From the IMG/VR virus record IMGVR_UViG_3300034198_000925, positions 1 through 25,140 of that record: a stretch of 25,140 nucleotides of DNA; one strand, given 5' to 3'. The stretch comes from a virus. The number at the start of each line of letters is the position of its first letter. The stretch's first letter is position 1. Shown here in pieces: positions 3,481 through 18,553 of the stretch. The notes below the pieces were generated by a model. That model had not been told where the DNA came from, did not search any database, and worked only from the letters and a program-made list of their open reading frames with translations. The position numbers were made by a program, and so were the translations under genes.

Positions 3481-5052
3481 ATGAAGCCTGAGTTAATTGA
3501 GGTACGAAAGCGTCTCTACAATGACTTCCCATTCTACGCAAAACACGCTCTTAAGATTAGAACTAAGGACGGGGAGATCGTTCCATTCAAATTAAACCAC
3601 GCGCAGGCGATCCTTCAGAAAGCAGTTGAAGAAGAGGTTGAGGCGCGTGGCTACTGTCGCATCATAGTTCTTAAAGCCCGACAGTTGGGACTCTCCACGC
3701 ACATAGGGGCCTATTTGTATTCCCGTGTGTCTCAGGAGAAAGCACGTAAGGCACTTGTGGTCACCCACGCAGCCGATAGTACACGTGCGCTTTTCGATAT
3801 GACTAAGCGTTATCACGATAACTGCCCTGATGGCCTCAAGCCCTCAACGAAGTACTCTTCGAGGCGAGAGTTATCGTTCGACATCCTAGACTCCTCATAC
3901 ATCGTTGCGACCGCAGGTGGCGAAAGTATCGCCCGTGGTGAAACGATCTCACATTCTCACCTGTCGGAGTTGGCCTTCTGGCCTACACATAACGCACGTG
4001 AGAACTTCAACGCTATCATGCAGGCCGTTCCGTCTGCCAAAGGAACAGCAGTCTTCATCGAGTCCACCGCAAATGGTGTCTCAGGTCTATTCTACGAGTT
4101 GTGGAAGGGTGCCGTTGATGGGACTAATGGCTTCAGGGCCGTGTTTATCCCTTGGTACACTGATCCGCTGTATCGTGAAGAAATCACTGCTCCTTTCGAC
4201 CTCACTCCAGACGAGAAGTCTCTCGCAGCGAAGTATGGTCTTGATGAAGGACAGCTTGCCTTCCGTCGCAGAAAGATCGCACAGAACGGTATCGACCTCT
4301 GGAACCAAGAGTATCCCACGGAACCAGAAGACGCATTCCTCACTACGGGTCGCCCTGTGTTCAACCCAGAGCAACTCACGAAGCGTCTCACCGAGACTCA
4401 GGAACCTCTCGCACGTTTAGCCCTCGAAGGTAACGAGTGGCAGAACAACGTACGCGGTGAACTGACACAATACTACAAGCACGATCCTAAAGAGACTTAT
4501 TACATCGGAGCAGACGTAGCCATGGGTATCCGTGGAGGCGACTGGTCGGTAGCGCAGGTCTTCGATAGCGAACGTCGTCAGGTCGCCACATGGCGTGGTC
4601 AGGTACATCCAGATTACTTCTCGGACGTTCTGTACAACTTAGGCAACTATTACAACACCGCAAGGTTGATCGTCGAGAACAACTCGCACGGCATCCTTAC
4701 GTGTACACGGCTCGGTAAGGATTACTCCTACGAGAACCTTTATATGACCACTGAGGTCGATAAGGTCACCGAACGTGAGAATACGACATTCGGATTCAGG
4801 ACGACCGTCAAGACGAAGCCACTGATCATTGATCAACTACGTGCTGCGCTTCGAGACGGCATCATTGAACTCAACGATAAAACTACGATCCGCGAGATGC
4901 TGACCTATGTGGTCACTGAGAGCGGTGCGATGGAGGCCGAACAAGGCTGCTTTGACGATTGCGTCATGGCTCTTGCGATGGTGAACCACATCCACGAAGG
5001 CAAATTCACACCTGTCGAAGTAACAGATGAATATTACATAGAGGCGTTATAA
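3481..5052 (+). CDS. terL: Terminase large subunit (packaging ATPase/nuclease)
   Basis: This is the DNA-packaging motor, which hydrolyses ATP to pump DNA into the prohead and cuts the DNA. The 523-residue length is normal. A deviant Walker A lies at residues 65-73 (KARQLGLST). The Walker B/catalytic Glu region is SHLSELAFW near 159-167, and the coupling motif FIESTANG is near 192-199. The C-terminal RNase H-like nuclease shows its three acidic positions: Asp345 in YIGADVAMG, Glu399 in LIVENNSHG, and Asp492/493 in FDDCVMALAM. The gene follows terS and its stop overlaps the portal start (TAATG at 5050-5054), so the two are probably coupled. In T7 the terminase lies at the far end of the late region, unlike here. 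Confidence 0.95.
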   Translation: MKPELIEVRKRLYNDFPFYAKHALKIRTKDGEIVPFKLNHAQAILQKAVEEEVEARGYCRIIVLKARQLGLSTHIGAYLYSRVSQEKARKALVVTHAADSTRALFDMTKRYHDNCPDGLKPSTKYSSRRELSFDILDSSYIVATAGGESIARGETISHSHLSELAFWPTHNARENFNAIMQAVPSAKGTAVFIESTANGVSGLFYELWKGAVDGTNGFRAVFIPWYTDPLYREEITAPFDLTPDEKSLAAKYGLDEGQLAFRRRKIAQNGIDLWNQEYPTEPEDAFLTTGRPVFNPEQLTKRLTETQEPLARLALEGNEWQNNVRGELTQYYKHDPKETYYIGADVAMGIRGGDWSVAQVFDSERRQVATWRGQVHPDYFSDVLYNLGNYYNTARLIVENNSHGILTCTRLGKDYSYENLYMTTEVDKVTERENTTFGFRTTVKTKPLIIDQLRAALRDGIIELNDKTTIREMLTYVVTESGAMEAEQGCFDDCVMALAMVNHIHEGKFTPVEVTDEYYIEAL

Positions 5053-7079
5053 TGGCTAAGAAGAAAAAGGGGATGTCAGATGATGAAATCCTCGTCGTCG
5101 TTGATAAGGCCGTTAGTGACTCAGTAGGTTACTTCGACAGCCAGTTGTCTCGTGAACGCGAGAAAGTACTCAACTACTACAATGGCGTCCTTCCGAAGCC
5201 TGTTCACGCAGGTAACTCGAAGTACATCTCGATGGATGTCTATGACACCGTTGAGTCGGCCAAAGCAGTTCTACTTGAGACCTTCGCAGCCGGAAACAAG
5301 CTCGTCGAGTTCACTCCAGTAGGCCCTGAAGACGTTCAAGCGGCTAAGATCGCTACGGACTACACGGACTACGTGATCTTTCGTCAGAACAACGGCTACC
5401 AAGTGTTCTCTGATGCCCTTACGGACGGAATGTTAGCCCGTGTTGGCATCGCAAAGGTCTATTGGGACAAACGTGAGGTCGAAACGACCGAAGAGTTCGC
5501 AGACCTTTCAGCCGACCAGTTTGATCAGCTACTTTCGCAGCCAGATGTTGAACTTGAAGACTACACACAGGACGATGCGACGCTTCTCATTAGCGGTTCG
5601 ATCATCCGTAGTGCCAATGAGTCTCAGGTTGTCATCGAAAACATCCCTCCAGAAGAGTTCTTGATCTCATCACGCGCTAAGTCCCTTACACAGGCAGACT
5701 TTGTAGGACAGCGTGTGCGTAAGTCCAAGAGTGATCTCATCAAGGATGGCTACGATAAGGACATTGTAGATCGCATCTCGTTCGATGAACACGTAGGTCT
5801 CAACGAAGAGAACGCACGTTTCACTGAAATCGACGCTACGTCTGCCTTTAACCGTCAAGCATACCAAGATGCCGTCTCGAAAGTGACCGTCTACGAATGT
5901 TATATGCAAATCGACGTTGAGGGCGATGGCGAAGCCTGTCTCTATAAGATCATCAAGGCTGGTAACGAGATACTCCATAAGGAAGAAGTCGATAGGGTAC
6001 CATTCATCACGAATGTCCCCCTTCCGATTCCGCACAGTTTCTTTGGGTCGAACTTCGCTTCGAAGGTCATCCCGATTCAGAACGCTCGTACGGTCCTCAT
6101 GCGAGGCATTCTCGACCATACGGTCATTACGAACAACCCGCGCTATCAAGTTGTCAAAGGTGCTCTCGTCAATCCGAGGGAACTTCTCGATAACCGTATC
6201 GGCGGTGTGGTCAACGTAACGAGACCTGATGGCATCATGCCCCTTCAGCAAGCCTCATTGAACCCGTTCGTCTTCCAGACGATCCAGTTGCTCGATGAGG
6301 ACAAGGAGGACACCACTGGTATCTCGAAGTTGTCGCAGGGTCTCAATAAGGACGCTGTGAGCCAACAGAACAGTGGAGCGATGGTTGAACAACTCGTCAG
6401 CCTTTCGCAGCAACGTCAGAAGATCATGGCGCGTAACTTCGCCAATAACTTCCTGATCCCTCTGTACCTCGAAGTCTACCGCCTTGTAATCGAAAACGAA
6501 GACAAAAAGAAGGTCGTAGAGATCGCTGGTAACTGGGTGGAAGTTGAGCCTCAGCGTTGGCGTGAACGGAGAGACGTACAGGCATCGTTGCGCCTTGGTT
6601 ACGGTGAGCAGGAGAAGGACGCACAGAAGTATCTGGCGATCCATCAGTTGCTTACATCTGATCCAGGCTTACAGCCACTCTACACGATCAAGAACCGCTA
6701 TACGAACATCTGTAATTTCCTTGAGGCGTCAGGCTTCAAGAACACAGAGGAAATCATCACAGCACCAGATCACGTACCGCCACCACAGCCAGACCCGATG
6801 CAGGTTGTTCAACTTGAAGCAGCCAAGAAGCAAATCGAAGTCGCTGATCGTCAGGTCGCAGTACAGGAAGTCAAGGCGAAAGCCGAAGCGGAACTCGATC
6901 ACATGAAGGTCGAGATGGAACGCATGAAGACCATGATCGACGTTATGATGAAGCAGCGTGATGCAGAGCGTAAGGAGTTCGACTCCAAGGAACGCGCTAA
7001 GATCGCTGAAGCGGAACTGTCGCTAATGCAGAATACACCAACAGAGGTCAAGCAGACACAGATTGTCAGCCCCTCATAA
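5052..7079 (+). CDS. Portal (head-tail connector) protein
   Basis: The 675-residue protein is the right size and position for a podophage portal, the dodecameric ring at one capsid vertex through which DNA enters and leaves. It starts within the terL stop codon. The N-terminal third resembles the phiEco32/SU10/P22-like portal group from memory (KYISMDVYDTVESAKAVLLETF, then a hydrophilic insert). The middle has GSNFASKVIPIQNARTVLMR, likely the clip/stem region. The last ~110 residues (from about 565) are an uninterrupted charged helix rich in Glu, Lys, Met and Gln, as expected of a barrel or coiled-coil extension. The family assignment is by recollection. Confidence 0.88.
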   Translation: MAKKKKGMSDDEILVVVDKAVSDSVGYFDSQLSREREKVLNYYNGVLPKPVHAGNSKYISMDVYDTVESAKAVLLETFAAGNKLVEFTPVGPEDVQAAKIATDYTDYVIFRQNNGYQVFSDALTDGMLARVGIAKVYWDKREVETTEEFADLSADQFDQLLSQPDVELEDYTQDDATLLISGSIIRSANESQVVIENIPPEEFLISSRAKSLTQADFVGQRVRKSKSDLIKDGYDKDIVDRISFDEHVGLNEENARFTEIDATSAFNRQAYQDAVSKVTVYECYMQIDVEGDGEACLYKIIKAGNEILHKEEVDRVPFITNVPLPIPHSFFGSNFASKVIPIQNARTVLMRGILDHTVITNNPRYQVVKGALVNPRELLDNRIGGVVNVTRPDGIMPLQQASLNPFVFQTIQLLDEDKEDTTGISKLSQGLNKDAVSQQNSGAMVEQLVSLSQQRQKIMARNFANNFLIPLYLEVYRLVIENEDKKKVVEIAGNWVEVEPQRWRERRDVQASLRLGYGEQEKDAQKYLAIHQLLTSDPGLQPLYTIKNRYTNICNFLEASGFKNTEEIITAPDHVPPPQPDPMQVVQLEAAKKQIEVADRQVAVQEVKAKAEAELDHMKVEMERMKTMIDVMMKQRDAERKEFDSKERAKIAEAELSLMQNTPTEVKQTQIVSPS

Positions 7080-7097
7080 GGTCATTGAAGGAGAGCC

Positions 7098-7394
7098 ATG
7101 ACCATACATACACTTTCAGAGGAGGAGGCGCGTCTTGTCAACGACGGTATCGCTGCGGAGCGCCTTCTCAACGATGACACATTCCAGAGCGCAGTAAACG
7201 CACTCAGCGAGCAACTATCAGGAGCGATCATCAACACATCGCTTGAAGATGCCGCGAAGCGTGAGCGCCTCTATTTCATGCACTCGTCATTGGTAGAACT
7301 GGTCAACATCCTGAAGAGCAGGATGCTTACCAAGATCAATATCGAGAAATCCCTTAACACCGACGAAGATGATTACGTCGAAACCGAGAATTGA
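7098..7394 (+). CDS. Small acidic helical protein between portal and scaffold
   Basis: This gives 98 residues from an ATG with an excellent AAGGAG at 7089-7094. The product is mostly helical and acidic, with the tail TDEDDYVETEN; it has no membrane segment and no recognisable motif. Many podophages carry a short protein of unknown role between portal and scaffold, and this fits that slot. Its stop codon lies just before the scaffold start. Function not assigned; an accessory assembly factor is possible by position. Confidence 0.75.
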   Translation: MTIHTLSEEEARLVNDGIAAERLLNDDTFQSAVNALSEQLSGAIINTSLEDAAKRERLYFMHSSLVELVNILKSRMLTKINIEKSLNTDEDDYVETEN

Positions 7395-7399
7395 ATTTT

Positions 7400-8407
7400 A
7401 TGACAACTATCCCTATGGACGTTGAGAAGACAGAAGAACTAGGCGCTCTCACCCCAAGTGAAGCCGCCGACGCATTCCTTAGTCGTTGGAAAGTAGACGC
7501 TAAAGAGCCATCTACAGACGATGAAGGGGCAAAGGAAGAAGAAGTCGATGAGACCGACGACGCTTCCGAAACTGAAGAGCCTGATGCAACCGAAGAAGTC
7601 GAAGAGGGCGAAGAGGACCAACAAGAAGAAGCCGCTGAAGATAAGTACGTTGATGATGATAACGTCAAGGTAAAGGTCAAAGTAGGCGATGAAGAACTTG
7701 TTGTATCTGTCAAAGACCTTAAGCGTCTTTACGGTCAAGAAGCATCACTCACACGTAAGTCTCAAGAAGTCGCGCAGAAGCGGAAAGAAGTTGAGGAGCA
7801 AGGCTCTCTTCACATCACTGGTCTACAGAAGCTCTATGAACGCGCTGTAGAACGCTACAAACCTTTCGCCAATATCGACATGCTCGTTGCGTCCAAACAG
7901 ATGGACACTGAAGAGCTTCAGATATTGCGACAGGAAGCCAACAAGGCTTACGAAGACGTTAGGTTCATGGAAAGTGAACTTCAGGTCTTCGCTAAGACTG
8001 TTGATGCACAGCGTCAGAAGATGATCGTTGAGCAAGCCAAGATTGCCGTCGAGGTCTTAAAGAACCCTGAGACAGGCATCCCGAATTTCTCTCCAGAGAC
8101 CTACAAGAGCATTCTAGATTACGCTGTAAGCAACGGAATGCCCGCTGATGTCGCAGGAAAAATCGTCGATCCATTGATCATCAAGACCATTTGGAAAGCG
8201 ATGAACTACGACAACACAAAGCAGGTTGCGACCGTAAAGAAGGTCAAAGCACCTACTAAGGTTCTCAAGTCCAAATCAAACGTAGCTACATCAGGTTTCG
8301 CATCTGACTCGGCAGCTAAAGCGATGAGTACGCTACGCAAGACTGGATCGCGTGATGACGCAGCGGCCGCGTTCCTCCAAAGGTGGAATGTGGGTAGCGA
8401 TGATTAA
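7400..8407 (+). CDS. Capsid scaffolding protein
   Basis: I chose the ATG at 7400 (335 aa); a TTG at 7391 overlapping the previous stop, and an ATG at 7415, are alternatives, and the RBS is weak (GAGAA). After a short N-terminus comes an extremely acidic stretch (about residues 40-85, dominated by Glu and Asp). A long charged helical region follows, and then a basic C-terminal segment (KKVKAPTKVLKSKS) and a short terminal helix. This acidic-helical-basic layout directly before the major capsid gene is typical of podophage scaffolds, which fill the prohead and leave before maturation. The motif AAxAFLxRW occurs twice, at residues 21-30 and 320-329. Confidence 0.85.
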   Translation: MTTIPMDVEKTEELGALTPSEAADAFLSRWKVDAKEPSTDDEGAKEEEVDETDDASETEEPDATEEVEEGEEDQQEEAAEDKYVDDDNVKVKVKVGDEELVVSVKDLKRLYGQEASLTRKSQEVAQKRKEVEEQGSLHITGLQKLYERAVERYKPFANIDMLVASKQMDTEELQILRQEANKAYEDVRFMESELQVFAKTVDAQRQKMIVEQAKIAVEVLKNPETGIPNFSPETYKSILDYAVSNGMPADVAGKIVDPLIIKTIWKAMNYDNTKQVATVKKVKAPTKVLKSKSNVATSGFASDSAAKAMSTLRKTGSRDDAAAAFLQRWNVGSDD

Positions 8408-8427
8408 CTTATAGCCCCAACATTGTT

Positions 8428-8438
8428 TATAGGATTAC
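8428..8438 (+). promoter_or_regulatory. Promoter-like TATAG(G)ATTAC element before capsid gene
   Basis: The 37-base gap before the capsid gene holds ACATTG (8420-8425) then TATAGGATTAC (8428-8438). A closely similar pair, ACATTG and TATAGATTAC, occurs at 15835-15854 upstream of the RNA polymerase gene. A phage-polymerase or host promoter here would match the strong capsid promoter of T7, but the spacing differs by two bases between copies, so this is only suggestive. AGGA at 8431-8434 probably also serves as the capsid ribosome-binding site. Confidence 0.25.
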
Positions 8439-8444
8439 ACTAAT

Positions 8445-9359
8445 ATGGCTACTTATACCTCGTATGATATGGTAGGTCGCGCAGAGGATGTCAGTGACAT
8501 CATCACAAATCTGTCCCCTACTAAAACGCCTTTTTCAAGCTCGTTGAAGAGCGAGAAAGTTTCTCAGCGCAATTTTGACTGGCAGGAAGATTCACTCCGT
8601 GCCGTTCAGACGAATGCCAAGGTCGAAGGCTTCACAGCTTCCGACGCGACACTCAGCGCAACGACCTTGCGTTCGAACTACACTCAGATTCTCGAAAAGA
8701 CCATTAAGGTCTCGGCGACATCTGATGTAATTCAGAAATATGGCCGTGCGAAGGAAACCGCCTATCAACTCTCGAAGGCCGGTGAAGAACTTAATCGTGA
8801 CCTTGAGAACGCAATGGTCGGTATGGATCAGGCAGCAGTCGCAGGCGATAACTCGTCTACTGCTCGTCAAATGGCTTCGGCTATCTATCAGATCAGCGCA
8901 ACGACCACGATCACGACCGACTCGGACACTGGTACCGTTGGTAACCAGGCTGGTCCGTTGACGGAAGCAAACGTGCTTACGCTCCATCAGACACTTTACA
9001 ATCAGGGTTCCGATCCTTCGATCCTTATGGTGAAGCCCGCTGACTCGCAGTTGATTGCTGCGTTCACTGGCGCATCGGGTCGTTACCGTGAGGTTGGTGC
9101 TGACTCGCAGAAGCTCGTTAATTCCGTCAATATTTATGTGAGTCCGTTTGGTGAACTCAAGGTCGTCATAAATCGGTTCGTGAAGACGGACCATGCGATC
9201 ATGTACGATCCTGATATGTGGCGTAAGATTACGCTTCGTCCTTGGACACGTACGACACTCGCTAAGAATGGCGATAACGAAATGAATATGCTTGTCGGCG
9301 AATTTTCGCTCAAGCACATGAACCAGCTTGCGTCGGGTAAGATTAAGAACCTCACGTAA
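8445..9359 (+). CDS. Major capsid protein (DUF5309/SU10-like)
   Basis: The 304-residue shell protein lies immediately after the scaffold. The opening TYTSYDMVGRAEDVSDIIT and the following NLSPTKTPF match my memory of the DUF5309 / phage SU10 major capsid group (HK97 fold), along with ILEKTIKVSATSD and the C-terminal EFSLKHMNQLASGKIKNL. It would form the icosahedral capsid lattice. Codon use is slightly different from its neighbours, with many TCG and GCG codons, as is common in a highly expressed gene. It is preceded by a possible promoter and followed by a hairpin region at 9382-9442. This capsid type is not the T7 gp10 type, although the replication genes are T7-like. Confidence 0.88.
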   Translation: MATYTSYDMVGRAEDVSDIITNLSPTKTPFSSSLKSEKVSQRNFDWQEDSLRAVQTNAKVEGFTASDATLSATTLRSNYTQILEKTIKVSATSDVIQKYGRAKETAYQLSKAGEELNRDLENAMVGMDQAAVAGDNSSTARQMASAIYQISATTTITTDSDTGTVGNQAGPLTEANVLTLHQTLYNQGSDPSILMVKPADSQLIAAFTGASGRYREVGADSQKLVNSVNIYVSPFGELKVVINRFVKTDHAIMYDPDMWRKITLRPWTRTTLAKNGDNEMNMLVGEFSLKHMNQLASGKIKNLT

Positions 9360-9381
9360 GTCTTCTGAATTGACGGAAGGA

Positions 9382-9442
9382 CTGCTTTAAGCAGCGTAAG
9401 GACATGGGGGGCTGTGCGCTCTCCCGATGCCTAGCCCATGTC
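9382..9442 (+). terminator. Two hairpins after the capsid gene, possible terminator
   Basis: A small hairpin CTGCT-TTA-AGCAG lies at 9382-9394. It is followed by a larger one whose arms GACATGGG (9401-9408) and CCCATGTC (9435-9442) pair perfectly across a 26-base loop. A pyrimidine-rich stretch follows, but no run of T. T7 has a terminator (T-phi) at the same point, just after its capsid gene, so reduced transcription of downstream genes or an mRNA-processing site is plausible. The lack of a T-run keeps this tentative. Confidence 0.35.
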
Positions 9443-9473
9443 TCCTTCCTGTCTTTCTCTATCGGAGAGCCTA

Positions 9474-9764
9474 ATGACTAAACTAATTGATCCTACCGTA
9501 TCGTTTGATGACGTTGATGACAAATTGTTGATCCGTAAAGATCAGACGATCACTAGCGAATTTCTTGATGATCTTAAAGAGGATCGCCACGCATCGAAAG
9601 ATCGCGCAGGTGAATACCATAAGATCGCATCCGTCCCCACTGTCGTAGTCGAGAAGTGGCTACGTGAGGGTTTTGATATTTGGCGTGAGACGCCGCAGTC
9701 AATCCTTAAGAAGTTACGAGACGAAAACCTTCAGGCATTTATTGCTACAGAAAAGAGAATCTAA
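9474..9764 (+). CDS. Small acidic/basic hypothetical protein, head-region
   Basis: The ATG at 9474 is chosen because GGAG (9464-9467) stands in front of it; an upstream in-frame ATG at 9438 lies inside the hairpin and has no ribosome site. The product is 96 residues, soluble, with an acidic N-terminal half and a helical C-terminal half (TVVVEKWLREGFDIW, SILKKLRDENLQAFI). The pattern of a short helical protein just after the capsid gene is common among phages, but I do not recognise a named family. A head-completion or capsid-associated role is possible by position only. Confidence 0.7.
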   Translation: MTKLIDPTVSFDDVDDKLLIRKDQTITSEFLDDLKEDRHASKDRAGEYHKIASVPTVVVEKWLREGFDIWRETPQSILKKLRDENLQAFIATEKRI

Positions 9765-9766
9765 AA

Positions 9767-10270
9767 ATGTTTCCAATGACCGTCGGTAACCTCATTCAGA
9801 TGGCGATTGCACAGTTCACTCGTCCAGCCGATACCACTGCATATGCCTCTGGCGATCTCGTGGCGAACTCGACGACCGCTGGTTCCGTCGTTCCCATGAC
9901 CTTCAATACAGCACGTGATACAGGTGCAGGTGGTGTCATCAGTCGCGTACGTCTCCGTAAGTCCGGTACGTCGATTACCTCAGCATCCTTCCGTCTTCAT
10001 CTTTACAACGTCTCACCAACAGTCTCGAATGGTGACAATGGTGCATGGCTTACGACAGGCGCAGGTACATATATTGGTTCCTTCGACATCACGATGGATA
10101 AGGCTTTCTCTGATGGTGCTGTGGGCGTCGGTATTCCGACTGTAGGTACAGACATCCGTTTCCGCCTGAGGTCCGGTTCGACACATTACGGTGTCCTTGA
10201 GGCACGTGCCGCATACACACCCGCGAACGCTGAAGTCTTCACAGTAGAGCTTGAAGTCGTACAGAGCTAA
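9767..10270 (+). CDS. Beta-rich minor structural protein
   Basis: This gives 167 residues from an ATG two bases after the previous stop, with a weak ribosome site. The sequence is rich in Thr, Ser, Gly and Val and alternates hydrophobic and polar residues (SRVRLRKSGTSI, ASFRLHLYNVSPTV, YIGSFDITMDKAF), predicting a beta-sandwich. It has no signal peptide or membrane segment. Such proteins between capsid and adaptor genes are often capsid decoration or head-fibre proteins. Function is inferred from fold type and place. Confidence 0.7.
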   Translation: MFPMTVGNLIQMAIAQFTRPADTTAYASGDLVANSTTAGSVVPMTFNTARDTGAGGVISRVRLRKSGTSITSASFRLHLYNVSPTVSNGDNGAWLTTGAGTYIGSFDITMDKAFSDGAVGVGIPTVGTDIRFRLRSGSTHYGVLEARAAYTPANAEVFTVELEVVQS

Positions 10271-10278
10271 AGGATTTC

Positions 10279-10899
10279 ATGATGAATTACGGTCAGATCA
10301 GAACGCAGTTTAAGAGCGTCTTAAATCGGTCGGACTGCACAGACGCACTGGCCGATACATTTATCTCCCAAGGTCTCGCACGTTCTCAGCGCATCCTCCG
10401 TTCCCCATTGAACGAGAAGTCTGTCATAGTGACTACGGACGAAACATTTGTTTCCTTCCCAGTCCCTTCAGACCTCATCGCCGTTATCAACTTCTCGGCG
10501 GGCGGCAAGTTCGTACAGTTCATTCCGACTGGTCGGTTCTATGAGATCGACATGACGGTCAATGACATCCCTCAGGCTGGTCGCCCGATCTACTGGACAC
10601 GAGTAGGCTCTTCGATTCTCGTTAAGCCTCTCCCTCCGGCAGACCTTGATCTACAACTCGACTACTATGGTGAGTTCGAACAGTTCGTCAGTGATGCCAC
10701 AGAGACAACTCTTGGTATTGTAGCGCCGGACTTGATTGTCTATGGGGGTCTTTCGTTCGCCGCTGATTACTTCATTGATGATCGCCGTGACTCCTTCGAG
10801 TCTCGTTGGCAGAGCGCCATGGCCGAACTTCAAGATCAGGCCACAGGTGTCGAAGGTCCCGCTCAGATCATGCCGACTACGTTCTACGGGGAATACTAA
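10279..10899 (+). CDS. Head-tail adaptor-like protein
   Basis: The product is 206 residues. AAGGA lies just upstream, and either of two adjacent ATGs (10279 or 10282) could be the start; the second has the better spacing. The N-terminus (MNYGQIRTQFKSVLNRSDCTD, then ALADTFISQGLARSQRILR) is helical. The middle is beta-rich, and the C-terminus is helical (FESRWQSAMAELQDQ). From memory this resembles adaptor or head-completion proteins of SU10-like podophages, which form the ring joining portal to tail. The capsid type supports that reading. The stop overlaps the next start (TAATG). Confidence 0.6.
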   Translation: MMNYGQIRTQFKSVLNRSDCTDALADTFISQGLARSQRILRSPLNEKSVIVTTDETFVSFPVPSDLIAVINFSAGGKFVQFIPTGRFYEIDMTVNDIPQAGRPIYWTRVGSSILVKPLPPADLDLQLDYYGEFEQFVSDATETTLGIVAPDLIVYGGLSFAADYFIDDRRDSFESRWQSAMAELQDQATGVEGPAQIMPTTFYGEY

Positions 10900-11333
10900 T
10901 GGCTAACTCCAGTTTCTTTGCGCAAGACGGTTATTCACCGACAGTCATCCCTACGTTCCAACAGATCGTCAATGATAGTATCGACAATGCGGGTGCGATT
11001 GCTCCAAAGACACTGACGATTGTCAATCCATCAGGAAGTAACCTCCCAGAGGTCACACTGTTCTACCTCAAGAACGCTGTAACGATTTCACGAATTGACG
11101 CTGTTCTTCGTGGTACCACCCCGTCTGTTTCCTATAGTCTCCGCTACGGTCCAGATAGATCGGCAGCAGGAACCGAAGTCGTCAGCGGAGGTCTAACTTG
11201 CTCGAATACAAACACCGGAACGACCACTACGACGTTCAATAACCCCACGGTCCCCTTAGGTAACTATGTGTGGGTAAAGGTCACAGCGATCTCCGGTCTT
11301 GTAGACGAATTTAGTGTCACCCTTTCATTCTAA
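10899..11333 (+). CDS. Beta-rich minor structural protein
   Basis: The ATG at 10899 overlaps the preceding stop and has GGGGA at 10888-10892, giving 144 residues; a longer version starting at 10806 inside the adaptor gene is rejected. The sequence is rich in Thr, Ser, Asn and Val with a Thr run (TGTTTTTFNNPTVP), and predicts an all-beta domain. It is similar in character to the protein encoded at 9767-10270. It may be a decoration or tail-associated protein; I cannot assign a family. Confidence 0.7.
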   Translation: MANSSFFAQDGYSPTVIPTFQQIVNDSIDNAGAIAPKTLTIVNPSGSNLPEVTLFYLKNAVTISRIDAVLRGTTPSVSYSLRYGPDRSAAGTEVVSGGLTCSNTNTGTTTTTFNNPTVPLGNYVWVKVTAISGLVDEFSVTLSF

Positions 11334-11342
11334 GAGATTCAG

Positions 11343-11759
11343 ATGGCTTCTTTTAATAAATTTAATTCGTTCGTTGAGGACGTTGCGGAGAAGGTGCATA
11401 ACCTTGGTTCCGATGTCCTCAAGGTCATGTTGACCAATACGGCCCCTGTCGCAACCAATACGATCAAGACGAACATCACGGAAATCACGGCGGGTACTGG
11501 TTACACCGCAGGTGGCGGTACAGTGACCGTTACGGCCTCTGCGCAGACCTCAGGCGTCTACAAGCTCGTAGGCAACGCATTGGTCTTCACGGCTACAGGT
11601 TCCATGGGTCCGTTCCGCTATGCAGTCCTTTACAACTCTACGGCTGCTTCCGGTAACTTGATCGGCTGGTACGACTACGGTTCCTCAGTGACCCTCGCGT
11701 CAGGTGAAACCTTCACGGTCTCCTTCGATGGAACGAACGGTATCCTTCAGTTAACCTAA
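11343..11759 (+). CDS. Conserved phage structural protein (MASFNKFNSFVED type)
   Basis: This 138-residue protein begins MASFNKFNSFVEDVAEKVHN, continues through VLKVMLTNTAPVATNTI, and ends with a Gly/Thr-rich beta region containing GPFRYAVLYN and LIGWYDYGSSVTL. From memory this arrangement recurs widely in phages and prophages as an uncharacterised virion protein near head or tail genes. No enzyme motif is present. It sits between the adaptor candidate and the repeat protein, so it is most likely a decoration or tail component. Confidence 0.7.
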   Translation: MASFNKFNSFVEDVAEKVHNLGSDVLKVMLTNTAPVATNTIKTNITEITAGTGYTAGGGTVTVTASAQTSGVYKLVGNALVFTATGSMGPFRYAVLYNSTAASGNLIGWYDYGSSVTLASGETFTVSFDGTNGILQLT

Positions 11760-11771
11760 TAGGGGTCTCCG

Positions 11772-12596
11772 ATGCCTAGTTATACACTCACCGCTGAATC
11801 GGTGGGCTATGGCCTCGGACCTTATTGGGACCAAACGACGACCGCGTGGGACTCATCGACTCTCACGTGGTCCGAACTTGGCTTTGCAGCAGGCCTCGTC
11901 CACAACTTCCCTCTCACAGCTGCACAGTCGTCCTTCAGTCTCACTGGTAACACTGCCAATCTTCTAGTTGGTCGAGTGATGACCGCTACTCAGGTATCGT
12001 TCAGTGAAACAGGGAACGACTCAGGCCTTCTCTATGGTCGTACGGTCATTGCGACCCAAGCGTCCTTCACTGAGACTGGTAATGCCGCTACGCTATCACG
12101 TGGCTACAGTATAGATGCGACCCAAGCGTCCTTTAGTGAGACAGGTGTAGCTACAAACCTTCTCTTTGGTCGCGTTATTCCGATTACGTACGGAGCGTTC
12201 ACCGAGTCAGGTTATGCCGCAACGCTCTCTCGTGGCTATCAGGTCACTGCGAACCAAGCGTCCTTCACTGAGACTGGCTATGATGCTGGTCTTGTGTACG
12301 GTCGAGGCGTTATCGCCAACCAAGCGTCCTTCAGTCTCACTGGGAACGCGGCAGGCTTCGTTTCTGGACGTGTCCTTACCACCAACCCTGCGAGCTTTGT
12401 GGTTAGCGTCTACAACGCAGGCACCTTGGTTAGTCATGTATCTCAAGCAGACGTAACGGCCTTCAGTCACACAGGACAATCCGTCGAATTTATACGTGGT
12501 GTCGGCCTTACGGTAGACCATGGTTCATTTGCGGTCAGCGGATCAGTTGCAACTGTTTCAGCAAGAGCTCCACAACAGATTTATCTTATTACATAA
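11772..12596 (+). CDS. 22-residue-repeat tail/fibre-like protein
   Basis: This gives 274 residues from an ATG with AGGGG upstream. After a 45-residue head containing Trp-rich YWDQTTTAWDSSTLTW, the protein consists of ten repeats of exactly 22 residues (46-265). In each, a conserved Phe of the ASF motif falls at positions 55, 77, 99, 121, 143, 165, 187, 209, 231 and 253, mostly followed by ETG or LTG and later a Gly. The last three copies are diverged. Regular Gly/Phe repeats of this kind predict an elongated beta structure and occur in tail or fibre-like proteins of proteobacterial prophages. A receptor-binding or decoration role is inferred. Confidence 0.7.
   Translation: MPSYTLTAESVGYGLGPYWDQTTTAWDSSTLTWSELGFAAGLVHNFPLTAAQSSFSLTGNTANLLVGRVMTATQVSFSETGNDSGLLYGRTVIATQASFTETGNAATLSRGYSIDATQASFSETGVATNLLFGRVIPITYGAFTESGYAATLSRGYQVTANQASFTETGYDAGLVYGRGVIANQASFSLTGNAAGFVSGRVLTTNPASFVVSVYNAGTLVSHVSQADVTAFSHTGQSVEFIRGVGLTVDHGSFAVSGSVATVSARAPQQIYLIT
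11907..12566 (+). repeat. Ten tandem 66-bp coding repeats
   Basis: These are the DNA counterpart of the ten 22-codon repeats. Some copies share long identical stretches, such as CAAGCGTCCTTCACTGAGAC in the units near 12060 and 12258, while outer units are diverged. The period is exactly 66 bases throughout, so copy number could change by recombination without a frameshift. Confidence 0.8.
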
Positions 12597-12609
12597 AGAG
12601 GTGCAGTAA

Positions 12610-12840
12610 ATGCCTCCGACGAGCCAAATGTTCCTTCAAGAGATTGGTGAGATGAGAGCAAGGATTAGCCAGCTTGAGAAGGCGGTAGACTCGATGAGCG
12701 GAGACCTCAGAGAGATTAGAGATACAATTATTAAAGCAAAGGGTGGATGGCGAGGCCTGGTCTGGGTCGTTGGTATCGCTACGTTTGCGTTCGAAATGCT
12801 CCTACGCCTCACGTTACCCTTACTCAATATGGTGAAGTAA
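12610..12840 (+). CDS. Small C-terminally anchored membrane protein, holin candidate
   Basis: This gives 76 residues with a very good GAGGTG at 12598-12603. Residues 10-45 form a charged, coiled-coil-like helix (MRARISQLEKAVDSM, LREIRDTIIKAKG). One hydrophobic segment follows at about 48-73 (LVWVVGIATFAFEMLLRL). It directly precedes the endolysin, the usual holin place, and resembles XhlA-type proteins in layout. With a single membrane segment it could be the holin itself or an accessory to one. The next gene starts two bases after its stop. Confidence 0.6.
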   Translation: MPPTSQMFLQEIGEMRARISQLEKAVDSMSGDLREIRDTIIKAKGGWRGLVWVVGIATFAFEMLLRLTLPLLNMVK

Positions 12841-12842
12841 CA

Positions 12843-13556
12843 ATGAAACTTACTCAGGAGGGCCTCGACCTCATCAAGAGCTTCGAGGGGTTTTCTGCGC
12901 ATTGGTACAAATGTCCTGCTAATGTATGGACTGTAGGCTTTGGACACACCGCAGCAGCGGGTCCACCATCTTACGAACCAAATGTCGCCTTTACGAAAAC
13001 TAAAGCACTAAAGATTCTATGTGATGATCTAAAGCAATACGAAGACGCTGTGCGGCAGTCCGTTCGGGTTGAACTTAACGACAGTCAGTTCTCAGCTCTT
13101 GTTTCCTTCTGTTACAATGTGGGACCTAATGCCTTTAAGAACTCCAGTGTCCTCAGGGCAGTCAATGAGGGTCGTGACGATCTCGTCCCGTCTCGATTAA
13201 TGCTCTACACCAAAGCAGGCGGTAAGGTCCTCTCAGGGCTCGTCAGGCGGCGACAGGCTGAAGGTCAGATGTTTACTGAAGGTGTGGAAGATGAAGTGGT
13301 CTTTCCGTCCACTGAAATCGCACCGACTTACGGTAAGGTCTCCTACCAGTCCTCAACGAACATCGCAGCGGGTGTCTCTACGGTCGCTATGACCACCGCA
13401 GGTATCAACGAGGTCGTAGGAAACGTACAAGAGACTGTTACGATCTTCGGTATCGATACAAAGGTGATCGTCACAGCACTCCTCGTCGCAGGGGTCTGTG
13501 CAGCTCTTTGGATTATCAAGGAGCGTTTCTATAAATCCAAATATGAAGGTGTCTGA
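12843..13556 (+). CDS. Endolysin, GH24 lysozyme with C-terminal membrane segment
   Basis: This is a muramidase that cuts the peptidoglycan glycan strand. The ATG at 12843 is used; a longer frame begins in the holin gene but lacks a ribosome site. The catalytic triad spacing of T4-type lysozymes is present: Glu in KSFEGF, eight residues, Cys, five residues, Thr in TVGFGHT. Typical later motifs are QFSALVSFCYNVG and GLVRRRQAE. The enzyme domain occupies about residues 1-145. A Thr/Val-rich linker follows, then a hydrophobic helix near 209-226 (VIVTALLVAGVCAALWII) and a basic end. The N-terminus has no signal peptide or SAR segment, so export or anchoring via the C-terminal helix is unusual. Confidence 0.92.
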   Translation: MKLTQEGLDLIKSFEGFSAHWYKCPANVWTVGFGHTAAAGPPSYEPNVAFTKTKALKILCDDLKQYEDAVRQSVRVELNDSQFSALVSFCYNVGPNAFKNSSVLRAVNEGRDDLVPSRLMLYTKAGGKVLSGLVRRRQAEGQMFTEGVEDEVVFPSTEIAPTYGKVSYQSSTNIAAGVSTVAMTTAGINEVVGNVQETVTIFGIDTKVIVTALLVAGVCAALWIIKERFYKSKYEGV

Positions 13557-14202: not shown

Positions 14203-14562
14203 ATGACCACGAGATTAGAACGTAAGGCGCTTGACATGATCAAAGACCTGCTAGGCTCGATCATTGAGGTTTCCCCACATATGCCTGTCCAACAGGCCTC
14301 TGCAATCATACTTGTGGCTCTCAATGAAGGTTCTAGCATGAAGGAACTTACTGAGCTCGCAGGCGTGAAACAATCCACAATGAGCAGACATCTGATCGAC
14401 TTGGGTCGTCGGAATCGCCGCATGGAGCAGGGATATCAAGTGATCGAATGTCGCCAAGATGACTTCGATATGCGGAAGAACCGTTACAATCTAACGCCTA
14501 AAGGCCACACGGTCGTCAACAAGCTCTTAGATACGGTGAAGAACTATGCCGATATTCGCTGA
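14203..14562 (+). CDS. Winged-helix (MarR-like) regulator
   Basis: This gives 119 residues, with GAGG at 14191-14194 eight bases before the ATG. The centre has a helix-turn-helix (about 46-70: MKELTELAGVKQSTMSRHLI, then DLGRR), preceded by helices and followed by a wing-like segment (RKNRYNLTPKGHTVVN). This is the layout of MarR-type winged-helix proteins. It overlaps the integrase start by 17 bases and is the first gene after the late terminator, so it is the best candidate for the lysogeny regulator of this phage. Control of P1/P2 through the inverted repeats is an inference. It is not a lambda CI/Cro-type repressor, and no divergent partner gene exists. Confidence 0.75.
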   Translation: MTTRLERKALDMIKDLLGSIIEVSPHMPVQQASAIILVALNEGSSMKELTELAGVKQSTMSRHLIDLGRRNRRMEQGYQVIECRQDDFDMRKNRYNLTPKGHTVVNKLLDTVKNYADIR

Positions 14563-15727
14563 TAGAGACGCAAAGGGGAAGGTCACAGGTCGGTGGCGGG
14601 CGCAAGTCCGTACGAACGGTGTGACCACGAAGTCCCCTCGGTTCGAGACGTACCCAGAGGCGAAGGCGTGGGAAGAAGCCCAACGCACCACACCGCTCGT
14701 CAAGTTCGTCGCAGAGAAGAAGGCATCCTTCCGTGGCCCTGTGATGACCATTGGGGAATTGTTCCTAAAGGCTCAAGGGGTCATCTGGCGGGGCCTTCCG
14801 TCCGAAGAGACCAACGAAGCGCACCTTCGGATCGTCATCGAGATGCTTGGTCACGATCTGCCTCTGAGAGACCTCACGACCCCAGTGATCGATGAGTTAA
14901 TCGCCAAGCTCCTCAAGGGACGCAAGGGCGCAACGGTCAACCGTTACCTCTCGAACATCCGTCGCTTTATGGACTGGGGGCGCGAGCGGGGATACATCGA
15001 GAACCTTCCGACCTTTGATTGGCAGGAAGAGGCGCAAGGCCGCATTCGGTGGATCACCAAGGACGAAGAGGCTCAACTCTACGAACTCCTCGATGAACGG
15101 ATGGGCCGCCTGGTCCATGTGGCGATCCGTACAGGGATGCGTCGGGGCGAACTCCTGACGCTGACCTACGAGCAACTTCAGCCGACCAAAGTCCACCTGT
15201 GGAAGACCAAGAACAAGACGGGCCGCACGATCTCCATCAGCCCTACGACCCACGACAACCTGATGTGGCTCTTGGACCATGGGATGCCGAACGAGCATGA
15301 GTTGCGTTGGGCATGGGACCAAGCGAGAGCTGCGATGGGCCTGACGGACGATCCGTACTTCGTGTTCCATGTGTGTCGCCATACCTGCGCGACGCGCCTT
15401 GTTGAGGCCGGAGTGAACCTGAGGGTCATCCAGAAATGGTTAGGTCACCTGACCATCGAAACGACCATCCGGTATGCACAGGTCAAAGATACGATGCTTG
15501 AGGATGCCTTGACAAGACTGGATGAGCTAGAGCAAACGCAGGTAGATCAGGTGTCGGCGGGTTCAAAACGACATCTTAAAGTGTCGCAGCGGGGACATTA
15601 TCCAGTAGAGTTACTTCCGGTAGCGGTCGAAAAACATGAGGATAATCAATGCGGGCGTGGCGGAACTGGTAGACGCGCTAGGTTTAGGTTGCCTTCCGAA
15701 GACGAAGAACCCGAAGAAAATCAATGA
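14546..15727 (+). CDS. int: Tyrosine-recombinase integrase with attP core in its 3' end
   Basis: This 393-residue site-specific recombinase would insert the phage at a host tRNA-Leu gene. The ATG at 14546 has GGTGAA upstream and lies inside the regulator gene. The N-terminal arm-binding and core-binding domains occupy about residues 1-165. The catalytic residues are Arg199 in RTGMRRGE, a Lys in LWKTKNKTGR, His275 and Arg278 in FHVCRHTCATR, His301 in LGH, and nucleophile Tyr310 in TIRYAQV. Residues beyond ~330 are atypical: 369-381 are the translation of a tRNA-Leu half, followed by an acidic tail (SEDEEPEENQ). The stop overlaps a 41-codon ORF (ATGA). Confidence 0.95.
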   Translation: MPIFADRDAKGKVTGRWRAQVRTNGVTTKSPRFETYPEAKAWEEAQRTTPLVKFVAEKKASFRGPVMTIGELFLKAQGVIWRGLPSEETNEAHLRIVIEMLGHDLPLRDLTTPVIDELIAKLLKGRKGATVNRYLSNIRRFMDWGRERGYIENLPTFDWQEEAQGRIRWITKDEEAQLYELLDERMGRLVHVAIRTGMRRGELLTLTYEQLQPTKVHLWKTKNKTGRTISISPTTHDNLMWLLDHGMPNEHELRWAWDQARAAMGLTDDPYFVFHVCRHTCATRLVEAGVNLRVIQKWLGHLTIETTIRYAQVKDTMLEDALTRLDELEQTQVDQVSAGSKRHLKVSQRGHYPVELLPVAVEKHEDNQCGRGGTGRRARFRLPSEDEEPEENQ

Positions 15728-15745
15728 CATCGAAAGTTATCCTCA
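15637..15745. repeat. Inverted 9-bp arms around attP core
   Basis: TGAGGATAA (15637-15645) and TTATCCTCA (15737-15745) are perfect reverse complements. Their midpoint is 15691, two bases past the point where similarity to tRNA-Leu ends. This symmetry suggests integrase arm-type sites or another component of the recombination complex. Confidence 0.5.
15651..15689 (+). other. attP: Probable attP core: 5' half of tRNA-Leu(UAG)
   Basis: These 39 bases match the 5' half of a bacterial tRNA-Leu(UAG): acceptor strand GCGGGCG, TG, D-stem GCG/CGC enclosing GAACTGGTAGA, anticodon strand CTAGG and loop TTTAGGT with the TAG anticodon at 15685-15687. The next bases (TGCCT) cannot pair with CTAGG, so similarity stops exactly at the end of the anticodon loop and there is no 3' half. 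A tRNA fragment at the end of an integrase gene is the hallmark of an attachment core. The core lies inside the int reading frame. Confidence 0.85.
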
Positions 15746-15849
15746 ACAAGAATTTCGCACTTGTAATTAGTAGCGATCTGTGTAATATCGCATATAAAGA
15801 TTTAACCGATTGGTCAAAGAATCTTGATTTTGACACATTGGCTCTATAG
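15724..15849 (+). CDS. 41-residue ORF coupled to int
   Basis: An ATG overlaps the integrase stop (ATGA), as at several other gene junctions in this phage. It opens 41 codons ending at TAG 15847-15849 with a non-repetitive product (MTSKVILNKNFALVISSDLC, then NIAYKDLTDWSKN). No strong ribosome site and no motif are visible. After integration it would lie just inside the left prophage end. It may be a real small gene or a chance frame. Confidence 0.3.
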   Translation: MTSKVILNKNFALVISSDLCNIAYKDLTDWSKNLDFDTLAL

Positions 15850-15850
15850 A
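15824..15850 (+). promoter_or_regulatory. Possible promoter for RNA polymerase gene
   Basis: TTGATT (15824-15829) is followed after 15 bases by TATAGA (15845-15850). A perfect TTGACA (15830-15835) also occurs but without a convincing -10 at 17 bases. The same interval carries the ACATTG/TATAGATTAC pair that resembles the gap before the capsid gene, so it could be a host-type or a phage-type promoter. Confidence 0.35.
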
Positions 15851-15911
15851 TTACCTAACATTGGACCAAGACAGATTCGAAAGATTGAGGGGGTGACGGA
15901 CGGGAAGCCGA

Positions 15912-15981
15912 GGGGCCTAAGGGCCTGAAAATTAAAGACTAAACAGATTTGGTGACAACAAGAGGGCCCTTATTTGGCCCC
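15912..15981 (+). promoter_or_regulatory. Long potential stem-loop in RNA polymerase leader
   Basis: The segment at 15912-15926 can pair with 15964-15981: GGGGCC with GGCCCC, TAA with TTA, GGGCC with GGCCC plus a terminal G-U. That is 14-15 pairs broken only by a three-base TTT bulge (15973-15975), around a loop of about 37 bases. Local alternatives (GGGCC at 15964 with GGCCC at 15976) compete with it. It ends 13 bases before the ribosome site of the polymerase gene, suggesting attenuation, RNase III processing or mRNA protection. Confidence 0.45.
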
Positions 15982-16003
15982 ATCTACAGAAAACGGAGAG
16001 TCC

Positions 16004-18553
16004 ATGATGACATCCACAATCGAGCATCAAGCCAGACTTGAGGAACTATCGTTAACTGAAGGTCGTAATAGATACCTTAAGAGCCTTTCGAGAACTGAAG
16101 AAGACCAAGGTTTCTCTTCACGTTCAGACATCGAAAAGCTGATTAAAGGTGCTATCCCTTCAGTCTCTAAAGTCATCTTTAAGACCTTAGAGTCCTTCGA
16201 TAACCAAGGGTCTGGCCGAACCGCAGTATTCGTATCGTACCTCAACGAACTTGATCCAGACCTTCTGGCCCTTATTGGCCTTCAGGCGGTCTTCAACGGA
16301 ATTGGCTCAGAACGTCCATTGACCACTGTCTGCAACGTCGCAGGCAAAGCGGTCGAGACCGAACTCTGGGCGCTCCAATTAGAACGTAAGGACAAGGCGC
16401 TCCTCAAGCGTCTCGTCAAGAGAGCTACCGAAACTCATGGCTCGGTGGCCTATCGTAAGAAGGCCATTAAAGCGACAGCCGCTAAAGAGGGCCACAAGGT
16501 CGAGGAGTGGCCTCAGGAGCTTCGGGTGAAGGTTGGTAGCCCACTGATCTCTGCGGTCCTTCAAGGCTGTGCTGATGTCTTCGATCTCATCGAGGAACGT
16601 AGTCACGGAAAGACCACCAAGTTCATCGCACTGACACCTGCGGCCTCTGAGTATATCGCTTCGGTTAATGAGGTCGAGGGGTGGATGCACCCTATCTTTA
16701 AACCTATGGTTGTCCCCCCGCGCCCGTGGCGTTCGGTCAACACAGGGTGTTACATCTCCGAGAAGTTAAGCCGTGGTGTCAGTCTTATTCGGACCTTTGA
16801 CCGCGAGCATCGCAACCTCGTTCAGGCAGCAATCAAAGCAGGCAATATGCAGCTTTGCCTTCAGGCTGTGAACGCAATCCAGGCGACCGCTTGGAAGATC
16901 AATTCCAAGGTTCTTGAAGTCGTCCAATGGGCGCACGAGCAAGACCTTGAGATCGACTCGTTCCCTAAGCATAACCACATCTCGCGGCCCCCTCGCCCTG
17001 AGAACTGGGACAATCTTCCTACTAACGAAAAGAAGGCGTGGCGCATCAAGGTGTCCCAAGTTGCGAAGCGCAACCGTGGTATCGATGGTGAGAACGTAGT
17101 GTTCCGTCAGGACATTGCGACTGCTGAAGAACTGAAAGGACATGAAGCCTTCTGGCTCCCATGCTCCCTCGACTTCCGTGGTCGTGTCTACAGCGTCCCT
17201 CACTTCAACAATCAACGTGCAGACCACATCAAGGCATTGTTTACATTCGCAGACGGTCTCCCTTTGGGGACGGACGGAGCGGAGTGGTTAGCGATCCACC
17301 TTGCGAACTGTGGTGACTTCGGAAAGGTCTCTAAGCGGTCTTTGGACGAACGTTCCAAGTGGACCCGCGACAATCATGAGATGATCCAAAAGATCGCGGC
17401 AGACTTCAAGACTACCACCGACATCTGGATGAAGGCCGACAAGCCCTTCCAGTTCCTCGCGGCAGTCTTCGAGTACGCCGAGTACCTCAACGAAGGCGTG
17501 ACGTACGTAAGCCACCTTCCAATCGCCTTGGATGGTAGTAACTCCGGTCTCCAACATTACTCAGCGGCACTGCGGTCAACTGAGGGTGCTTTGGTCAACC
17601 TTGTTCCTACTGACAAGCCTTCTGATGTCTATCAGGCGGTCTGTGACAAGACGGTAGAAATCCTGACGAAGCAGTCCGAAGCACAGGATAACCTTTCGAC
17701 GCTCATCTTGAAGAACGGCGTTACTCGCTCGTTGGTCAAGAGGAACGTGATGACCTTTGCGTACTCTTCGGAGCAGTATGGCTTCGCAGAGCAGCACAGG
17801 GCAGACCTGATGGCTCCTTTGACCCTGAAGGTTCTCGAAGGGAAGCTCCCAAGCCATCCTTATGGTGTACCCAATGAGGACGGTTCGACGGACGAAGGCT
17901 TCAAGGCCTCGATGGTTCTCGCAAAGGCTGTGTGGACAGCCGTGAACGAGATCGTCAAGGACGCTTCTGAAGGCATGAAGTTCTTTCAGAAGTGCGCAGG
18001 GGCGCTTGCTCACGAACGTAAGCCACTGATGTGGGTGACCCCTCTCGGTCTCCCAGTCCTCCATAAGTACGTCGAATGGGACGTAAAGAAGGTGAGGCTC
18101 TTCATGTTCGACAAAAGCATCTCGGTAGACAAGGCCGCTAACGAAGACCTTGTGACGGAGGAGGGCGTGTTGAACCTCGTGAAGTCAAGTGTGCGTACAA
18201 AGCCTAACGGCCACATCAACAAGGATCGCGCTAAGTCTGCGGTGGCACCTAATGTCATCCACAGCCTCGACGCTTGTCACCTGATGATGACCATCAATGC
18301 GGCATGGGAAAAAGGGATGAACAACTTCTCACTCATCCATGACTCATTCGGTACTCATGCGGCAAATACCACTGAGTTCTTCTACACGATCCGCGAGCAG
18401 TTCGTCGATATGTATGAGAACTTCTGTCCATTCGAGGAAGTTGAATATCACACAAGAAAGCACCTCAAAGAGCAAGAGAAAGTCCCCGCGCTCCCGCAAA
18501 AAGGACAACTCGACCTCGCAGGAGTCATCGACTCCCTGTACGCCTTCGCCTGA
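16004..18553 (+). CDS. T7-type single-subunit RNA polymerase
   Basis: This DNA-dependent RNA polymerase would transcribe the phage genes from phage-specific promoters. The ATG at 16004 follows GGAGAG and gives 849 residues (T7: 883); a TTG at 15974 lies in the leader hairpin and is rejected. Catalytic signatures are Asp510 in IALDGSNSGLQHYS, Lys579 and Tyr587 in LVKRNVMTFAYSSEQYGF (same eight-residue spacing as T7 Lys631/Tyr639), and Asp780 in SLIHDSFGTHAAN. The C-terminus ends YAFA, like the FAFA end of T7 polymerase, so the enzyme looks complete. It is the first large gene after attP. Its 3' end overlaps another open frame. Confidence 0.96.
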   Translation: MMTSTIEHQARLEELSLTEGRNRYLKSLSRTEEDQGFSSRSDIEKLIKGAIPSVSKVIFKTLESFDNQGSGRTAVFVSYLNELDPDLLALIGLQAVFNGIGSERPLTTVCNVAGKAVETELWALQLERKDKALLKRLVKRATETHGSVAYRKKAIKATAAKEGHKVEEWPQELRVKVGSPLISAVLQGCADVFDLIEERSHGKTTKFIALTPAASEYIASVNEVEGWMHPIFKPMVVPPRPWRSVNTGCYISEKLSRGVSLIRTFDREHRNLVQAAIKAGNMQLCLQAVNAIQATAWKINSKVLEVVQWAHEQDLEIDSFPKHNHISRPPRPENWDNLPTNEKKAWRIKVSQVAKRNRGIDGENVVFRQDIATAEELKGHEAFWLPCSLDFRGRVYSVPHFNNQRADHIKALFTFADGLPLGTDGAEWLAIHLANCGDFGKVSKRSLDERSKWTRDNHEMIQKIAADFKTTTDIWMKADKPFQFLAAVFEYAEYLNEGVTYVSHLPIALDGSNSGLQHYSAALRSTEGALVNLVPTDKPSDVYQAVCDKTVEILTKQSEAQDNLSTLILKNGVTRSLVKRNVMTFAYSSEQYGFAEQHRADLMAPLTLKVLEGKLPSHPYGVPNEDGSTDEGFKASMVLAKAVWTAVNEIVKDASEGMKFFQKCAGALAHERKPLMWVTPLGLPVLHKYVEWDVKKVRLFMFDKSISVDKAANEDLVTEEGVLNLVKSSVRTKPNGHINKDRAKSAVAPNVIHSLDACHLMMTINAAWEKGMNNFSLIHDSFGTHAANTTEFFYTIREQFVDMYENFCPFEEVEYHTRKHLKEQEKVPALPQKGQLDLAGVIDSLYAFA

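Follow-up and report, generated by a model that had tools for sequence, protein, structure and literature searches.

The 25,140-base IMG/VR record analysed here, referred to in full as the window, very probably belongs to a T7-like temperate (or at least integration-capable) phage of marine Alphaproteobacteria, whose integrase recombines a 39-bp core with the 5' half of a host tRNA-Leu(UAG) gene, with exchange in the 7-base anticodon loop and rebuilding of the tRNA. In this best supported explanation, the identity of the core and the host tRNA are shown and the same layout is seen in related prophages; integration by the window phage itself, and the loop as the overlap region, are predictions. 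For an uncultured marine phage, the segment names both where it integrates and the group to which its hosts probably belong.

The core is found at 15651–15689 on the plus strand (GCGGGCGTGGCGGAACTGGTAGACGCGCTAGGTTTAGGT) and is identical to bases 1–39 of tRNA-Leu(UAG); it starts where the gene starts and ends with the anticodon loop, whose last base is base 39. An exact scan covering one genome for each of ~85,000 prokaryote species returned the core in four records, all Alphaproteobacteria, and each match lies in an 87-nt tRNA-Leu with the anticodon TAG at position 35 as determined by ARAGORN; the tRNA genes are uninterrupted in these four genomes. Directly after the core, all four hosts read CCTAG, the 3' strand of the anticodon stem, whereas the phage reads TGCCT; as the next base differs in four of four hosts, the boundary of the core is exact. 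Chance can be excluded on sequence grounds for an exact identity of 39 bases. An earlier note on this DNA had described the segment as the 5' half of tRNA-Leu(UAG) ending exactly at the end of the loop and had proposed a search for bacterial genes with full identity to it, and both the description and the search are borne out by these four genomes. Three of them belong to one small order, in which nine genomes were scanned; seven of these carry the core with at most one mismatch, and a T7-like RNAP was found in none of the nine. The six bases just upstream of the tRNA, ATCAAT, are common to the phage and the MarineAlpha9_Bin6 record. The exact core was absent from viral contigs in a scan of these, and no complete tRNA was found in the 25-kb window, although the record may be incomplete; end repeats were likewise not found in the 25-kb contig. 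There is hardly any doubt that the segment serves as the attP core for a tyrosine integrase with strand exchange in the anticodon loop, and its identity to the end of a host tRNA gene up to the crossover places it in the 5'-fragment class of tRNA-targeting sites with an anticodon-loop subsite.

The gene order around the core is that of a MarR-like regulator, tyrosine integrase, attP, T7-like RNA polymerase (RNAP), T7-like primase-helicase and family A DNA polymerase. The small winged-helix/MarR-like regulator (14203–14562, plus strand) is directly upstream of int with an ORF overlapping the int start; it is recognized through weak Pfam matches to MarR_2 and HVO_A0261_N, and the marR-int order is also present in LUZ100 and in the prophages G318 and G524. 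The integrase ORF (14546–15727, plus strand; 393 aa) has a catalytic domain at approximately residues 169–315 (Pfam Phage_integrase, 7e-21) and displays the R...HxxR...H...Y signature, with invariant R199, R278, H279, H301 and Y310 in alignment; the core lies in frame inside this ORF, as the earlier note stated. On the opposite side of attP is the single-subunit RNAP gene (16004–18553, plus strand; Pfam RNA_pol, 1e-94), the gene that adjoins the displaced 5' half in the prophage G525. ORFs, Pfam matches and comparison with LUZ100, P-SSP7 and HTVC019P identify the regulator, int, attP and RNAP as a T7-like temperate lysogeny cassette.

The earlier note had also proposed looking for a host–phage junction at the anticodon loop in relatives, and such junctions exist. 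G525 (47 kb) contains a prophage with both ends present, whose RNAP and integrase are 40% and 41% identical to those of the window. At its left end, host DNA is followed by the displaced 5' half, then a strong terminator and RNAP; at its right end, the integrase precedes a complete tRNA-Leu(UAG). An intact tRNA-Leu(UAG) results when the two flanks are joined at the loop, whereas the reconstructed attP contains none, and a single D-loop base that differs between the 5' halves places the strand exchange 3' of it. Contigs L214 and L226 share 97.6% identity over 4,018 bp and separate exactly after tRNA base 39, where one carries on into the 3' half of the tRNA and the other into phage DNA. In the T7-like prophage G221, with a terminase 66% identical to that of the window, the 50-bp bounding repeat contains the 5' half of tRNA-Lys(UUU). 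Rebuilding of the tRNA on integration, with displacement of the original fragment, is seen in G525 and supported by L214/L226; no prophage of the window phage itself was found.

Tyrosine integrases exchange strands across an overlap of 6–8 bp, and a loop of 7 bases between the inverted halves of the anticodon stem is consistent with this. The loop, TTTAGGT (15683–15689, plus strand), is the presumed 7-bp overlap, as the homology of L214 and L226 ends at the same base and a Rhizobium phage core has the same seven bases. The integrase would pair the phage core at 15651–15689 with its identical counterpart in the host tRNA-Leu(UAG) gene, the 5' half, and exchange strands inside the loop. Immediately after int, the 5' half brought by the phage would then continue into the host 3' half as an intact tRNA-Leu(UAG), and the host's own 5' half would come to lie at the RNAP end of the prophage. 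The predicted junctions are 15630–15689 followed by host CCTAGTGG, and the host upstream flank followed by the core and TGCCTTCCGAAG. With attP between int and RNAP, the whole prophage would then separate the two genes. The int ORF spans the core because the stop of the gene lies past it; in the prophage, the anticodon-stem TAG (in CCTAG) would shorten Int from 393 to 382 residues, with ...RARFRS as its end and the catalytic domain intact. Since the phage carries the 5' half, the rebuilt tRNA would lose its own promoter and may be transcribed from phage DNA, possibly by marR-int read-through; this loss raises the testable question of how a lysogen transcribes the rebuilt tRNA. Integration might further act as a genetic switch, in which the RNAP gene is cut off from the marR-int transcript, the host tRNA-Leu(UAG) is coupled to phage transcription and the Int C-terminus is swapped, such that the position of the att site locks lysogeny, but this extension is considered doubtful.

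SSV-type suicidal integrases also carry attP inside int, and integration splits the gene and parts the catalytic domain. The window integrase does not belong to this type: its core lies past Tyr310, and the predicted prophage Int of 382 aa keeps all catalytic residues.

A repeat search identified a perfect 9-bp inverted repeat around the core, with TGAGGATAA as the left arm (15637–15645) and TTATCCTCA as the right arm (15737–15745), both given on the plus strand, which are candidate arm-type integrase sites by their placement. The core is also surrounded by a 24-nt direct repeat (79%) with plus-strand copies at 15628–15651 and 15703–15726. No sigma70-like promoter was found in the window upstream of the core (p = 0.42), and a phage-supplied promoter upstream of the tRNA half is not claimed for the window, despite promoter-like sites at this position in P-SSP7, L222, L226 and L122 (p 0.01–0.035). 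The site in P-SSP7 (L006, ~815–840) reads TTGTTA-N16-TATAAT, is located 19 nt upstream of the tRNA half, and is of the kind that a lysogen would need to express the rebuilt tRNA. A terminator before RNAP is present in P-SSP7, S-CBP2, S-SRP01, L120, L205, L206, L210 and G525; none insulating RNAP was found in L118, L119, L198 or the window, where the interval between attP and RNAP is 15690–16003. In a prophage, the host tRNA promoter would face the phage RNAP gene.

The use of a 5' half had been considered unusual in the earlier note, which holds for tRNA islands overall, where 159 of 3,919 carry a 5' fragment versus 3,760 with a 3' fragment (~4%), and where an anticodon-centred crossover is one of two main subsites (Islander class, PMC4383910). 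As likened from the published description, the window phage resembles the Islander 5' tDNA class in its displaced 5' fragment and anticodon crossover, and differs in that the class consists mostly of genomic islands (PMC4383910). The rarity mostly fails for T7-like phages, many of which carry a 5' half, and judged by the genomes compared this is a normal form among them. P-SSP7 was correctly named as a precedent with a tRNA-Leu segment by its integrase gene: GGGAGTGTGGCGGAATTGGTAGACGCGCCGGACTTAAAA, bases 1–39 of tRNA-Leu(UAA), ends at the anticodon loop ~90 nt after the int stop, and integration of this phage into tRNA-Leu was shown experimentally (PMC8776855). The 5' half does not, however, set the window apart from P-SSP7, as was implied, since P-SSP7 has it too, and so do S-CBP2, S-SRP01 and at least nine IMG/VR relatives. 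These three Autographiviridae resemble the window in int, a tRNA-Leu 5' half ending at the anticodon loop and a T7-like RNAP, and differ in core type (Leu(UAA) in P-SSP7, Leu(CAG)-like in S-CBP2 and S-SRP01, UAG in the window), in the location of the core (~85–120 nt downstream of the int stop versus inside the ORF) and in their hosts, which are cyanobacterial where the putative hosts of the window phage are alphaproteobacterial.

Integrase-family scans placed a tRNA-Leu 5' half between int and RNAP in the IMG/VR contigs L118/L119, L120/L218, L122, L155, L198, L205, L206, L210, L222 and others. It is the same tRNA-Leu(UAG) 5' half in L118/L119, L198, L205, L120, L122, L206, L210 and L155, as in the prophages L199 (G524) and L212 (G525), and the integrases of these IMG/VR relatives are roughly 40–50% identical to that of the window (L155 lower). 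Other T7-like relatives have a complete tRNA-Leu instead of the 5' half. In the temperate T7-like Rhizobium phages vTRX32-1 / RHEph01 (Paadamvirus), the att core CAGATTTAGGTT lies in the tRNA-Leu anticodon arm (PMC8631192); they are similar to the window phage in their alphaproteobacterial hosts, the anticodon arm used and the TTTAGGT contained in the core, but pair a 12-bp core with a complete replacement tRNA-Leu on the phage rather than a 5' half (PMC8631192). The window does not follow such tRNA-dependent lysogeny by a short core and complete phage tRNA, as its 39-bp core would itself rebuild the tRNA and no complete one was found in the window, which may be an incomplete record. The window phage joins the T7-like phages that integrate at the tRNA-Leu anticodon loop via a 5' half, a strategy already known, to which the ORF overlap adds a small twist. 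Together, these systems suggest that T7-like temperate phages use tRNA anticodon arms, mostly of tRNA-Leu, and that the tRNA is kept working by either a phage-carried 5' half or a whole replacement gene.

Two further loci were observed in this context. A T7-like alphaproteobacterial prophage (L023–L025; G318:C1 ~77,655–118,275) interrupts the tRNA-Leu(CAA) gene of its host in the anticodon stem-loop, at a 15-bp core, and brings a complete but different tRNA-Leu(CAA) located 40 nt after int; apart from these, the tRNA-Leu genes detected in G318 are UAA, UAG, CAG and GAG, with no CAA among them, and the arrangement resembles the tRNA-dependent lysogeny described in actinobacteriophages (PMC10865867). 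HTVC019P (L282) has the tRNA-Cys anticodon stem-loop GGATTTGCAATCC between int and RNAP at ~4720 and, at another place in the stretch fetched, a complete tRNA-Cys, a combination suggestive of a short core with a replacement tRNA.

Whether integration commonly leads to lysogeny is a separate matter, and a possible though less favoured alternative is that it seldom does so, the site serving transient integration during lytic infection as in T7-like cyanophages. Both S-TIP37 and P-SSP7 insert at tRNA-Leu but yield no stable lysogens (PMC8776855), and a T7-like RNAP was detected in only 3 of 385 alphaproteobacterial genomes. This is countered by the related contigs with host–phage junctions (G525, G318, G221) and by the upstream MarR-like regulator, as found in phages proposed to be temperate. 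This alternative bears on the outcome of integration and not on the att site.

Translation of the core is the remaining feature to be accounted for. Codons 369–382 make up the core, at least 59 residues past the catalytic Tyr310, within a C-terminal tail (residues 334–393; 15545–15727, plus strand) that has no homologues in isolated phages and overlaps the att site, as delimited by phage matches, GC3 and codon constraint. Among the phage matches listed, integrase homology stops at residue 339 or earlier, and were Int to end near residue 339, the core would be ~90 nt downstream, as in P-SSP7 and S-CBP2. It is very unlikely that the translated core and the following acidic residues (RLPSEDEEPEENQ) form a functional Int C-terminus of the free phage that is swapped off by integration as a switch of integration state. 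The window, L118 and L119 do share the frame of the core and end in acidic tails, and integration would swap the last 12 residues for one Ser, but the overlap, which recurs in at least four distinct relatives, uses two different reading frames: among the IMG/VR relatives and prophages it is limited to L118/L119, in the frame of the window, L198 and L205, in another frame with other endings, and the prophage L199, where a complete rebuilt tRNA lies inside the int ORF. In several relatives, int stops before the core. Moreover, the codon changes between L118 and L119 comprise 44 synonymous and 14 nonsynonymous in the body versus 3 and 8 in the tail (Fisher p = 0.003), GC3 is 0.37 in the pre-core tail compared to 0.72 in the int body, and the tail coding score is below that of the body. 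The tail appears to be free of visible protein-level constraint, at least in this one pair, and with the overlap in two frames, translation of the core is probably incidental. A functional tail was rejected as the main reading on account of the differing frames and missing codon constraint, and no meaning of the translated core is supported, given the two frames and the absence in the L118/L119 tail of the codon-level purifying selection seen in the body. A degraded or captured piece of a phage tRNA gene, without any part in integration, is a hardly credible reading of the segment and is largely refuted by the relatives, since, although phages do carry tRNA genes and fragments and a prophage of the exact window phage was not found, the identity to the host is exact, the boundary falls at the loop end, many relatives keep the position directly past the int catalytic domain, and related prophages end in such fragments.

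Compared with Autographiviridae, the RNAP, primase-helicase and DNA polymerase A are T7-like, whereas the terminase is closest to those of non-T7 phages such as CRP-7; by these matches, the genome is a mosaic of a T7-like replication module and a non-T7 terminase. The integrase and RNAP both have the T7-like Bordetella phage BB8 as their best isolated-phage match (34% and 33%), with Pseudomonas phage LUZ100 second for the integrase. A single-sequence scan of viral contigs returned no close integrase or RNAP relatives. Over all comparisons, the best integrase identity is 47%. Terminase large subunit relatives in IMG/VR were discarded as a guide, since a T7-like int and RNAP are missing from most of the stretches fetched for them. 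In the region 3481–13556 of the window, the terminase is unlike that of T7, with Roseobacter phage CRP-7 (38%) as the best isolated match and 66% identity to the G221 prophage. Related integrase ORFs in L121 (~6100–6200) and L123 (~6090–6191) run through the 3' half of tRNA-Cys, so neither the tRNA nor the half employed is constant across this one integrase subfamily.
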